A DNA stretch of 64,000 bases from a bacterium. Its GTDB lineage: Bacteria; Electryoneota; RPQS01. The DNA is taken from the NCBI GenBank assembly GCA_036504735.1, contig DASXUQ010000005.1, positions 341,377 to 405,376 of the forward strand, given 5' to 3'. Both the position numbers and the translations under genes were made by a program. Below are positions 22,998 to 54,575 of the stretch, piece by piece; position 1 is the stretch's first letter, and every line of letters starts with the position of its first letter. The notes under the pieces were generated by a model. It made no database searches and was not told the DNA's origin. It saw only the letters and a program-made list of their open reading frames with translations.

Positions 22998-23001
22998 AGT
23001 G

Positions 23002-23075
23002 TGGGCGTTAGAAGAGTTGAACTTCTGACCTCTTGCATGTCACGCAAGCGCTCTAACCAACTGAGCTAAACGCCC
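23002..23075 (-). tRNA. tRNA-Val (anticodon GAC)
   Basis: Complete 74-base cloverleaf on the minus strand: acceptor GGGCGTT/AACGCCC, D-arm AGCTCAGTTGGTTAGAGC, anticodon loop GTGACAT between CTTGC and GCAAG, and a T-arm with GTTCAAC. Discriminator A; no encoded CCA. It ends five bases before the thrS start codon. Confidence 0.95.
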
Positions 23076-23096
23076 GGTATCCGAAAAACAAAAAAG

Positions 23097-23160
23097 CGAA
23101 AAAACGGAAATCGAAAATCAGGAAGACTCGGCTTTCAAATTTCCCGTTCCCAATTCCATC
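23097..23160. repeat. Facing pair of A-rich/T-rich 7-mer arrays in the tRNA-Leu/Val spacer
   Basis: 23097-23125 holds four degenerate units of the form CGAAAAT (unit lengths 8, 7, 7, 7). 23133-23160 holds four units beginning TTTC or TTCC, exactly 7 bases apart. Reverse-complemented, the second array has the same purine GGAA/GAAA character, so the two face each other. Confidence 0.55.
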
Positions 23161-23265
23161 TGATACGAAAAAAACCACAACCCGTGGCCGTGGTCATGCT
23201 GTACAGCGTGTCCTTCGAGACCTCGCTCCGCGGACGCGCGAACAGTGGAACGGGACCAAGAGGGG

Positions 23266-23351
23266 TGCCGGGAGCCGGACTCGAACCGGCACGGGGTTTT
23301 TGGCCCCTGAGGATTTTAAGTCCTCTGTGTCTACCATTTCACCACCCCGGC
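23266..23351 (-). tRNA. tRNA-Leu (anticodon TAA)
   Basis: An 86-base class II tRNA on the minus strand with acceptor GCCGGGG/TCCCGGC, anticodon loop CTTAAAA between GAGGA and TCCTC, a long variable arm (GGGGCC...CCCC) and T-arm GGTTCGAGT. Discriminator A; no encoded CCA. Confidence 0.95.
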
Positions 23352-23401
23352 GCAAGCACGGGATCGGTCTGCCTCCGGGCGTGATCGCGGCTGCGACGGA
23401 C

Positions 23402-23477
23402 TGGAGGCGCCGAGCGGATTCGAACCGCTGAATAGAGGTTTTGCAGACCTCCGCCTTAACCACTTGGCTACGGCGCC
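23402..23477 (-). tRNA. tRNA-Cys (anticodon GCA), CCA encoded
   Basis: Cloverleaf on the minus strand with acceptor GGCGCCG/CGGCGCC, D-arm AGCCAAGTGGTTAAGGC, anticodon loop TTGCAAA-type (GCA) between GAGGTC and ACCTC, T-arm GGTTCGAAT and discriminator T. It is the only tRNA in the window followed by a genomic CCA (23404-23402). Confidence 0.95.
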
Positions 23478-23484
23478 AAAAAAA

Positions 23485-23557
23485 GGATGAAGGATGAGGA
23501 TTGAAGAATGAACGAAGACTCACCGGGCGCCACGGCTTCATCGTTCATCATTCATAC
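23485..23557. repeat. Facing pair of GATGAA-type 7-mer arrays in the tRNA-Gly/Cys spacer
   Basis: 23485-23519 carries five 7-base units of the NNATGAA type on plus (GGATGAA, GGATGAG, GATTGAA, GAATGAA, CGAAGAC). 23537-23557 carries three units TTCATNN, the reverse complement of the same motif. The two arrays face each other across 17 bases. The same unit recurs at 52496-52530. Confidence 0.75.
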
Positions 23558-23565
23558 TTGCGTTG

Positions 23566-23637
23566 AGCGGGAGACGGGACTCGAACCCGCGACAGCCACG
23601 TTGGCAACGTGGAACTCTACCACTGAGTTACTCCCGC
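23566..23637 (-). tRNA. tRNA-Gly (anticodon GCC)
   Basis: A 72-base cloverleaf on the minus strand: acceptor GCGGGAG/CTCCCGC, D-arm AACTCAGTGGTAGAGT, anticodon loop TTGCCAA between CCACG and CGTGG, T-arm GGTTCGAGT, and discriminator T as usual for tRNA-Gly. No encoded CCA. Confidence 0.95.
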
Positions 23638-23649
23638 AAAGAACAGACT

Positions 23650-23716
23650 AAGACTCGAGACCAGAGACTTGAAAATGCCTTGACACCCCTACTCAGGTCT
23701 CAAGTCTTGAGTCTCC
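23650..23716. repeat. Facing pair of GAGACNN 7-mer arrays in the tRNA-Ala/Gly spacer
   Basis: 23650-23670 has three units on plus (AAGACTC, GAGACCA, GAGACTT). 23694-23716 has about three NNGTCTC-type units, the reverse complement of the same motif. They face each other across about 23 bases. The same GAGACNN family recurs at 34330-34357 and 53352-53386. Confidence 0.75.
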
Positions 23717-23729
23717 GGCTTTTGTCTTG

Positions 23730-23802
<73 letters not shown>

Positions 23803-50492: not shown

Positions 50493-50628
50493 GAAGATTC
50501 TCCCTATCGTGAAGATGAACCAACCATCAGGAACCCCATCACAGAATCATTATCTTCACGTCATTCAACACCCTTTTTACATGAATTAGTAGACTACAGC
50601 GATCTGTGAAGTGAGATCGACCCATTTT

Positions 50629-50676
50629 GGCTTCTTGGCTTCTTGGCTTCTTGGCTTCTTGGCTTCTCGGCGTCTC
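50629..50676 (-). repeat. 8-mer tandem array GGCTTCTT
   Basis: Six 8-base units on plus: four identical GGCTTCTT, then GGCTTCTC and GGCGTCTC. It abuts and slightly overlaps the stop codon of the BNR-type gene, so it forms that gene's 3' end. A related 8-mer array (GGCTTTTT type) lies at 53393-53424. Confidence 0.85.
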
Positions 50677-52487: not shown

Positions 52488-54575
52488 TTACTCCGCTTTC
52501 CGTTCATCGTTCATCATTCCTCGTTCATCGTTTCCCCCAAGGCTTTCCAGCAGCTTGGTAAACACCGGGTTTTCCGGCTGCAATTCCACCATGATTTTCA
52601 CCAATGGCAGAATCCTGTCACTCTGGCCGCGTTTTGCATAAGCCTTGCAGAGGAACAGCAGGTACTTGGCTAAATCGGGCCGCGCGCTGGCCGCCGCAAT
52701 GTACAGCGGCTCGGCCTCCTCCAACCGTCCCGCCAGCCGCAACTCCTCGGCCAGATTCAGCTTGTAGCGCGGATTTTCGTCCAGCGCCATAGCTGCCTTT
52801 ACAGCCCGGATCGCATTGGGCGCGTCCCCTTCCCTGCGGTAATAGGCCGCCACACTCTCCCATCCGTACGCCGCCCTCGCAGGCTCAAGGCCCAGAATCA
52901 TCTCGCTGCGCGCCACCTCACTGCGGGCAAAAGCATTTTCCAATACATACGGCACCGGAACCAGCAGGGCAAATCCCACAATCACCGCCAGCACATCTAC
53001 CCGCCGCCCCTCCGCCATCTGCGCCAGCTTCCAAGCCCCCAGCACCACCAGCGGCCACAGTCCCAAACAGAGCAGATCCCAATCCCTCGCCGCCCCCAAA
53101 TCCGGACTGATAATAAACACAAATGCCCCCCCGCACACCCCCATCACCTGCAACACCCGCGAAGCAAAAAAGGCTGCTTTCTGCTCCCCTTTCCCCTCTT
53201 TTCCCCCTACTTTAGTGGGGGGAATACAAGGGGGGTGGGGAAAGTCTTTAGACCTCGACGAAGGCGGGGGGCCGGGGGATAGAGGTCTGCTGGCAAAATC
53301 TAAAGAGGATAAGGTTCCACTCAAGGAAGCACCAAGCTCTGAATCGCAATCACGTCTCACGTCTCGAGTCTCAAGTCTCCAATCTTCCTTTTGGCTTTTT
53401 GGCATTTGAGCTTTTTGGCTTTTGAGCAACGCCGCTCCCCCCGGCAGCGCCACGCACAGCAGCAGCACATTCAGCATGTCCCACCAATGCCGCCCCGCCA
53501 GCAGACTGTAGCCATCGGGAGAATCCGTCGGATACGGCGACAGCATATAATGCAGCCCCGGCCCGTAAAACACCACCACATAGGTCAGCACCGCCGCCAC
53601 GGCCATCGCCGCCACAAACCACCGCCACCTCACCGCGCGCCACAGCAGCCCCTCTTCCCCGCTCTGTTTGAGCAGCACCAGCAGTGCCACCGCCGGCAGA
53701 AACACCAGGGTCAATAAGTGACATCCCACCGCCACCGCGTACGCCAGCAGCGTCTTCAGCGGCCAGCGGGATCCGTCCGCACTCTCTTCGATGGCAAACA
53801 GCGCCACGGCGCAAATCGCCAGCGCCGTCCACGCATAGTCTTCCACATAGCCGAAGAAGAGCAGCACCCCTCCGCCGCATAAGAGCGTCGCCACAAACAC
53901 CGCCCGCGAGTTTTCCGGCAGCATCTTTCGCGCAAACCGCACCGCCAGCAGCACCAGCAAGGCTCCGGCTATGGCCGCCAACACAATATAGGACCACCGC
54001 CCCGCTTCAAAGAACCATGTCTTCTCCGCGCTGATCAAATTGTCATCCACGTCTATATCGTCGGGCCTGTCAGGCGGTGGGCGGAACTTCGCCACCAGCC
54101 GGAAGGCATTCTCGTGGAGTTCATACTCGAAAGGCTCCGTCCAATGTACGGAGCCCTTGTCCACCGAGGGAATCAGCCGCGCCTCCAGCCGCCCCAGCGT
54201 CACCAGATGCGTCAGCAGCAACTGGCCGTCGCCCATAAACGGCTCCTGCACACGCAGCAGCAGAAAAAGGGCAAAAGCCACTGCGGCCCATACCCACAAC
54301 GGCTGGGCCGGCGGAATCTTCCGCGCCAGATCCACCACGCGCCGCATCAGCGGCACACTCCACGGCGTCAAAAAGAATCCACCGGACAGGAGCAGCAGGA
54401 TGGAAACAGGCGGGGACAGAAACGCGAGATGATGGACTCCCCACCACCGCGCGGACGGAAAGACCCAACCGATGCACACCAGAACCAGCAGAATGGCGCC
54501 CGCGATTCTCAGCGGGACAAGGAAGGAACGGCGATCGGAGGACTCCGATCCGGAGGGAACTGCCATTGCGCACAA
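52488..54575 (-). CDS. Polytopic membrane protein with TPR tail; coding sequence contains repeat DNA
   Basis: A 695-residue protein with about 10-12 membrane helices (first near 22-40), FMGDGQLLLTH early (GDG/DxD-like, as in GT-C glycosyltransferases) and a C-terminal TPR-like segment (YYRREGDAPNAIRAVKAAMALD, ELRLAGRLEEAEPLY). Between two helices about 85 residues (KSQKAQMPKSQK, LETRDVRR, PPTKVGGKEGKG) are encoded by 7-mer, 8-mer and G-rich repeat DNA, and the last residues (NDERGMMNDER) by another 7-mer array. A glycosyltransferase-like role is an inference. It lies 14 bases after the next membrane gene. Confidence 0.8.
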   Translation of the reverse strand: MCAMAVPSGSESSDRRSFLVPLRIAGAILLVLVCIGWVFPSARWWGVHHLAFLSPPVSILLLLSGGFFLTPWSVPLMRRVVDLARKIPPAQPLWVWAAVAFALFLLLRVQEPFMGDGQLLLTHLVTLGRLEARLIPSVDKGSVHWTEPFEYELHENAFRLVAKFRPPPDRPDDIDVDDNLISAEKTWFFEAGRWSYIVLAAIAGALLVLLAVRFARKMLPENSRAVFVATLLCGGGVLLFFGYVEDYAWTALAICAVALFAIEESADGSRWPLKTLLAYAVAVGCHLLTLVFLPAVALLVLLKQSGEEGLLWRAVRWRWFVAAMAVAAVLTYVVVFYGPGLHYMLSPYPTDSPDGYSLLAGRHWWDMLNVLLLCVALPGGAALLKSQKAQMPKSQKEDWRLETRDVRRDCDSELGASLSGTLSSLDFASRPLSPGPPPSSRSKDFPHPPCIPPTKVGGKEGKGEQKAAFFASRVLQVMGVCGGAFVFIISPDLGAARDWDLLCLGLWPLVVLGAWKLAQMAEGRRVDVLAVIVGFALLVPVPYVLENAFARSEVARSEMILGLEPARAAYGWESVAAYYRREGDAPNAIRAVKAAMALDENPRYKLNLAEELRLAGRLEEAEPLYIAAASARPDLAKYLLFLCKAYAKRGQSDRILPLVKIMVELQPENPVFTKLLESLGGNDERGMMNDERKAE
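52496..52530 (-). repeat. GATGAA-type 7-mer array at the 3' end of the membrane-TPR gene
   Basis: Five 7-base units on plus (CTTTCCG, TTCATCG, TTCATCA, TTCCTCG, TTCATCG), the same family as 23485-23557. It is translated in frame as NDERGMMNDERK at the end of the membrane-TPR protein. Confidence 0.82.
53200..53424 (-). repeat. Cluster of three repeat families inside a coding sequence
   Basis: 53200-53240 is the second copy of the G-rich element of 40305-40338. 53261-53296 has inverted ends AGACCTC/GAGGTCT. 53352-53386 is a GAGACNN 7-mer array of about five units. 53393-53424 is an 8-mer array of four GGCTTTTT-type units. The reading frame stays open through all of them. Confidence 0.8.

Follow-up and report, generated by a model that had tools for sequence, protein, structure and literature searches.

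Many bacteria carry more heptamer arrays than expected, and no cause for this excess has found acceptance. The STRR heptamers of cyanobacteria such as Calothrix form degenerate intergenic arrays with several unit types. In Xanthomonas, GGGAATC heptamers make up 70 and 75 convergent pairs in two species, mostly with four units per array and with 89-93% of the arrays intergenic, lying on average 28 nt from the 5′ neighbouring ORF versus 160 nt from the downstream ORF, and the prominent array sites differ between the two species (Rehm et al. 2015, PMC4692102). Nostoc sp. PCC 7120 has only few inverted heptamer pairs (PMC4692102). In the P6b stem-loop of the Nostoc tRNA-Leu(UAA) intron, the repeats are heptamers of class I (TDNGATT) or class II (NNTGAGT) with a conserved core and variable bases, and one class can substitute for the other with the fold retained (Kaasalainen et al. 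2015, PMC4476775). The TAACTGA repeats of Beggiatoaceae form intergenic arrays at gene borders, some of them split by related 7-mers (MacGregor 2015, PMC4679880). The Xanthomonas pairs and the Nostoc P6b stem are direct precedents for facing heptamer pairs, so that the claim of the first-pass annotation that such pairs were undescribed fails. The facing arrays reported here are a richer form of a known, unexplained bacterial repeat kind and no new system.

The genome studied (G000) is assembled into 4.16 Mb on 19 contigs, and the window, the whole stretch of 64,000 nucleotides that was analysed, corresponds to C5:341377-405376. Five consecutive minus-strand tRNAs (Val, Leu, Cys, Gly, Ala) occupy window positions 23001-23802, upstream of thrS (Table 1). 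In dinucleotide-preserving shuffles (300 per lag, nine lags per spacer, with p per lag and uncorrected), 0 of 300 shuffles were equally good at period 7 for the Cys/Gly spacer, p was 0.007 at period 7 for the Gly/Ala spacer, and the purine stretch of the Val/Leu spacer gave p 0.02 at period 7 and 0.003 at period 8. Tandem Repeats Finder, which is independent of the shuffles, lists 23082-23117, 23483-23512 and 23537-23555. No array was seen in the Leu/Cys spacer by sequence reading, Tandem Repeats Finder or shuffles, and an Rfam search of the window returned tRNAs only, with no group I intron of tRNA-Leu. Facing heptamer pairs had been proposed for three of the tRNA spacers; by the shuffles they are clear in Cys/Gly and Gly/Ala, and the Val/Leu pair is weak because an A-rich stretch faces only about 2.5 pyrimidine units. 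The accompanying description, two arms of opposite type with a unit that varies between spacers while the architecture repeats, was borne out, and the view of the pairs as specific to tRNA spacers is not supported, since they occur genome-wide.

Table 1. Features of the tRNA cluster and of further 7- and 8-base arrays in the window (window positions)
Feature	Position	Strand	Evidence
tRNA-Val(GAC)	23001..23075	-	ARAGORN + Rfam RF00005
Val/Leu spacer, purine arm, A-rich, mixed period 7/8, weak	23082..23125	+	Tandem Repeats Finder (TRF; 23082-23117), shuffles
Val/Leu spacer, pyrimidine arm, ~2.5 TTTCCCG-like units, weak	23133..23157	-	Reading of sequence; pairs with purine arm in fold
tRNA-Leu(TAA)	23264..23351	-	tRNA search
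tRNA-Cys(GCA)	23402..23477	-	tRNA search
Cys/Gly spacer, purine arm NNATGAA, ~4 units, AAGGATGAAGGATGAGGATTGAAGAATGAA	23483..23512	+	TRF score 37; 0/300 shuffles
Cys/Gly spacer, facing pyrimidine arm TTCATNN, TTCATCGTTCATCATTCAT	23537..23555	-	TRF score 31
tRNA-Gly(GCC)	23565..23637	-	tRNA search
Gly/Ala spacer, purine arm GAGACNN, AGACTAAGACTCGAGACCAGAGACTTGA	23645..23672	+	Sequence; pairs in -34.7 kcal/mol hairpin
Gly/Ala spacer, facing pyrimidine arm NNGTCTC, CTCAGGTCTCAAGTCTTGAGTCT	23692..23714	-	Shuffles p 0.007; hairpin z -3.2
tRNA-Ala(GGC)	23729..23802	-	tRNA search
(TTGGCTTC)6 octamer array, spacer of two minus-strand genes, short flanking inverted repeat	50627..50675	-	TRF score 84
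CGTTCAT heptamer array, 3′ end of ORF 52488-54575, purine type on coding strand	52501..52532	-	TRF score 50
GTCTCNA heptamer array, in frame inside ORF 52488-54575	53350..53385	-	TRF, genome census
TTTTGGCT octamer array, in frame inside ORF 52488-54575	53389..53423	-	TRF, genome census

The genome-wide census covered 1.6 Mb (38%) of this genome, with ORFs from a simple hexamer-based caller and self-matches scored at fixed lags. Among non-coding arrays with a score of at least 12, 50 had period 7 and 27 had period 8, the other periods from 4 to 13 contributed five together, and the 33 arrays of period 14 represent the double of 7. Although non-coding sequence makes up 11.5% of the sample, it contained 50 of the 67 period-7 arrays at this score. 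The arrays are thus of the STRR type, degenerate, with a 7-base period, mainly intergenic and dispersed, with 8-base arrays alongside, and their likeness to the Calothrix heptamers in degeneracy, intergenic position and several units is one by description. About nine unit families could be distinguished, and four is the most frequent number of units per array (63 of 121). The units include AAGGATG, CTGAAANN, AAATAGG, GACTTGA and GGGATAA and are mostly without runs of three G, unlike the GGGANTN unit of Xanthomonas with its quadruplex potential.

The resemblance to the Xanthomonas system (PMC4692102) lies in heptamers of about four units, mainly intergenic, arranged as convergent pairs at unshared sites, whereas one G-rich, quadruplex-capable unit is used there and about nine A/G-rich 7- and 8-base units are used here, with tRNA-tRNA spacers prominent. 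With Nostoc P6b (PMC4476775) they share a stem of heptamer repeats with a conserved core plus variable bases, but P6b is a single site in a group I intron, and the present arrays occupy tRNA and gene spacers genome-wide. The Beggiatoaceae repeats (PMC4679880) are likewise intergenic heptamer arrays linked to gene borders; in contrast to this genome, they use one unit, mostly as direct repeats right before start codons, with one inverted case.

Further repeat features were observed in the same sample. Array density in C5:1-500000 is about tenfold below that of C8 at equal GC (0.585 vs 0.588). Two contigs end within perfect (AAGGATG)n of 13-15 units (G000:C8:357341-357446 and G000:C17:1-93), so assembly breaks probably occur at the longest arrays, and counts of these are too low. 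Another, distinct set of 165-240-base dispersed repeats with 89-97% identity (CCCCCTTNNAAAGGGGGAA..., ACGGGCACGACATGGCCCTTCGGCC...) lies in intergenic gaps, for example at C8:311418-312475, C10:153244-153897 and C17:2075-3763. By spacer similarity, one cluster joins 111 spacers of the 1.6 Mb, short arrays among them.

Orientation is the most regular property of the arrays. Among 22 pairs no more than 120 bases apart, 18 have the order purine-pyrimidine, three are purine-purine, one is pyrimidine-pyrimidine and none is pyrimidine-purine, and the excess of the purine-first order has a binomial p of 3e-8. As in the convergent pairs of Xanthomonas, the arms are close, on opposite strands and in one order (18 vs 0). 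Arrays in random orientation would have refuted the proposal of the first-pass annotation by its own criterion; with 18:0, orientation is non-random genome-wide. Arms match better within the 18 pairs than across pairs (permutation, p 0.024); about seven of the 18, counted by eye, combine arms of different families, so that the purine-first order extends beyond arms that are exactly complementary.

A polarity is also visible at gene borders. Arrays within 15 bases of a gene, read on the sense strand of that gene, are of purine type behind stop codons (40:2) and of pyrimidine type before start codons (16:3); all three purine exceptions before starts are AAGGATG arrays, whose reading as AAGG-ATG may mislead the calling of starts. 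In spacers with a single array, purine arrays lie nearer the left gene (21:2) and pyrimidine arrays nearer the right gene (19:5). Single arrays were considered as pairs with a decayed partner and this was rejected: the inner spacer remainder shows no pyrimidine bias (purine 0.49), and over all arrays, an array pairs no better with its own inner flank than with the inner flanks belonging to others (p 0.24), so that a good part of the lone arrays look genuinely single. Most purine arms contain TGA, TAG or TAA in every frame, the AAAAGCCA and AAAGCAG families being the exceptions. A function as back-up stop codons was discarded, given that these two families do not have a stop in every frame and that tRNA spacers are untranslated.

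Comparison with relatives shows that array sites turn over. Across 168 orthologous neighbouring gene pairs compared with G001, arrays were present only here in six, only there in four and in both in none. Where this genome has a spacer with an array, the two genes in relatives are close together or overlap (66 vs -4 in G001, 80 vs -6 in G011, 110 vs 15 and 131 vs 37 bases), and the converse, array spacers in relatives that are short or overlapping junctions here, is also seen. Families that bear stops are found within genes almost exclusively in the pyrimidine orientation, which is free of stops. Compared with 3dme, a related oxidase is longer at one place, with 58 residues (173-230) instead of 15, and a TTCATCC array encodes SSFIPHPSSFILHPSSFIL in this segment. 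In five genes, arrays fall in a linker 80-90 codons before the end, just ahead of a C-terminal domain of the Por_Secre_tail type (five tails similar by comparison, one of them confirmed by Pfam). Junction lengths, in-frame arrays and the stop-free sense together point to gain at the DNA level filtered by coding constraint. An aldehyde dehydrogenase with an in-frame array was set aside as an insertion case, its length there being only 2-6 residues off solved relatives.

Two observations concern the in-frame repeats themselves. At window positions 53200-53440, within the minus-strand ORF 52488-54575 for a membrane/TPR protein, a stretch of about 240 bases is read in frame that contains several repeats otherwise typical of intergenic DNA, namely a palindrome of the CCCCTACTTTAGTGGGG type together with heptamer and octamer arrays. 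A heptamer-encoded linker (SFILHPSSFIL-like) precedes the C-terminal secretion sorting domain at C8:248420, C8:249840, C8:313898, C10:84196 and C10:86785.

Given these patterns, we somewhat favor the interpretation that the arrays are STRR-like short tandem repeats, specific to a lineage and able to form hairpins, which originate at the DNA level and persist in free sequence. A purine-rich 7- or 8-mer is multiplied, about fourfold, and the arm of opposite type lies 15-50 bases from it, so that both DNA strands and any transcript read purine arm, loop and pyrimidine arm. The simplest route for arrays to arise and turn over would be slippage within an arm, together with hairpin-templated copying or gene conversion from arm to arm; in G008 and G009 the units are more alike within an arm than between arms. 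Arrays persist wherever sequence is free, as seen in the gaps between tRNAs, in those between genes and in protein linkers. The stop codons in purine arms may shape survival, with sense-strand purine arms ending up behind the stop codon, and the same effect could be why nearly only stop-free orientations are left inside genes. In the tRNA transcript, the pairs would fold into stem-loops between the tRNAs, which are probably tolerated by precursor separation and are perhaps useful to it; a selected role there is possible. The stem-loops are dispensable, since sister genomes have the tRNAs in the same order without them. Tolerance alone does not explain the purine-first order in all families, including mixed-family pairs, nor does it explain the border polarity of single arrays.

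Unlikely, though by no means negligible, is the alternative that the arrays are selected RNA elements, in which intercistronic stem-loops direct processing (e.g. by RNase III) or shield tRNA precursors and operon mRNAs at their 3′ ends, the unit being free to change provided that the arms pair. The thrS-Val-Leu-Cys-Gly-Ala cluster is kept across the family and the order of this genome, and the relatives compared differ from one another at the genus level. In favor of a selected element, facing arrays recur, with different units, in the same two tRNA spacers of several genera: the Gly/Ala unit is GAGACTN here, AAATCNG in G009, the octamer GAAATGCN in G001 and AAAATCC in G011 (another family), and the Cys/Gly unit is mostly NGATGAA in G000, G008 and G009 and NTATGAA in G001, where GATGAA has become TATGAA in both arms. 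Facing heptamers that form a stem and differ in unit at the same site also characterize Nostoc P6b; in the relatives compared here, either repeated unit change in one ancestral stem or separate gains in free spacers could have produced this. Predicted single-strand RNA folds in this genome reach -34.7 kcal/mol (z -3.2) for the Ala-Gly spacer, -20.1 kcal/mol (z -1.6) for Gly-Cys and -58.3 kcal/mol (z -1.1) for Leu-Val, so that here a hairpin well above chance is predicted for Gly/Ala only; z is -4.9 for Ala-Gly in G011, and -6.4 and -3.0 for Gly-Cys in G001 and G009. The strongest folds (z -3.2, -4.9 and -6.4) favor selection and agree with the imperfect hairpins between tRNAs that the first-pass annotation had suggested. 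Four of the five tRNA-tRNA spacers in the 1.6 Mb sample bear arrays, the weak Val/Leu case included, versus 68 of 551 CDS-CDS spacers (12%; Fisher p 0.001), an enrichment from two clusters that hints at selection; the second cluster has another unit in its gap, AAAAATG facing CATTTTT (C10:107375-107464). Against a selected element, tRNA order is unchanged in G007 and G010, where the Gly/Ala spacers measure only 32 and 38 bases and are free of arrays, and the Cys/Gly spacer of G011 has none. Array sites at protein genes are moreover unconserved (0/168), and arrays also lie in convergent and divergent gaps and within coding sequence.

Array density per 100 kb at the main threshold is 6.6 here, a value inflated because stretches on C8, C10, C17 and C19 were picked partly for pattern matches (orientation and position being unaffected), and 3.1 and 2.5 in G001 and G011; 400 kb of G007, from a sister genus, contained no period-7 or period-8 array at this threshold. 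Among the 41 genomes sampled, 22 (mostly from the same phylum) contain the AAGGATG unit, and the reversed control gave zero in all but one. The exact facing-pair pattern matched one site, in this genome, among 39 genomes of the phylum and none in reversed order, which indicates that exact patterns are too strict for such a survey. Clusters of 7- and 8-base arrays were also noticed in L094 (5507-5840, a Cloacimonadota MAG), L081 (4383, a Zixiibacteriota MAG) and L117 (12970), so such arrays are not confined to this phylum.

A MITE-like or REP-like mobile element, with the facing arrays as terminal inverted repeats and a transposase acting in trans, is very unlikely. It would fit the near-identical arrays of the AAGGATGAAGGCGGAAGGATGA type at about ten sites and the extra sequence in overlapping gene junctions and protein loops. 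However, copies with the same arms share neither loops nor flanks, the variant units of CTGAAANN arrays are ordered differently at each locus, and the arms of one pair can come from different families; neither fixed ends, target duplications nor full-length copies were seen.

Bidirectional transcription terminators, with a purine arm upstream and a pyrimidine arm downstream in either direction, would account for the purine-first order by giving a U-rich 3′ arm on both strands, and would suit the purine arrays behind stop codons. Location rules against this reading, which we take to be highly improbable: most arrays are found between genes in tandem and within tRNA operons, and convergent gaps are at most mildly richer (9/60, vs 52/417 tandem and 2/29 divergent). 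The arms are mostly A/T-rich, not the GC-rich stem and following T-tract of an intrinsic terminator at a transcript end, and the spacers behind the tRNA clusters contain just such an ordinary, terminator-like GC hairpin plus T-tract without arrays, so that the earlier idea of stop signals is not supported. Chance or assembly artefact, suggested by the weakness of the Val/Leu pair by itself (which alone could be chance) and by the contigs that end in the longest arrays, is refuted for the class and deserves hardly any weight, because not one period-7 or period-8 array appeared in 400 kb of third-order Markov control sequence, reversed-pattern controls gave 0 in this genome, and separate genomes have facing arrays in the same spacers.

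Our results also raise a broader possibility, distinctly unlikely at present, that one active process in the phylum writes genome-specific 7- and 8-base arrays as purine-first facing pairs at gene borders, and that in tRNA operons the stem persists through repeated replacement of its unit, structure rather than sequence being inherited. By analogy, the convergent pairs of Xanthomonas suggest that the cause may be general. In-frame arrays within proteins can shift gene-start and gene-end calls. Any cause must account for the rules seen here, namely units of 7 or 8 bases only, about four units, purine first, stop/start polarity, units that differ between related genera at the same tRNA spacers, and a sister genus with no arrays; as these rules are simple in this genome, the origin of the arrays is testable by comparing close strains.
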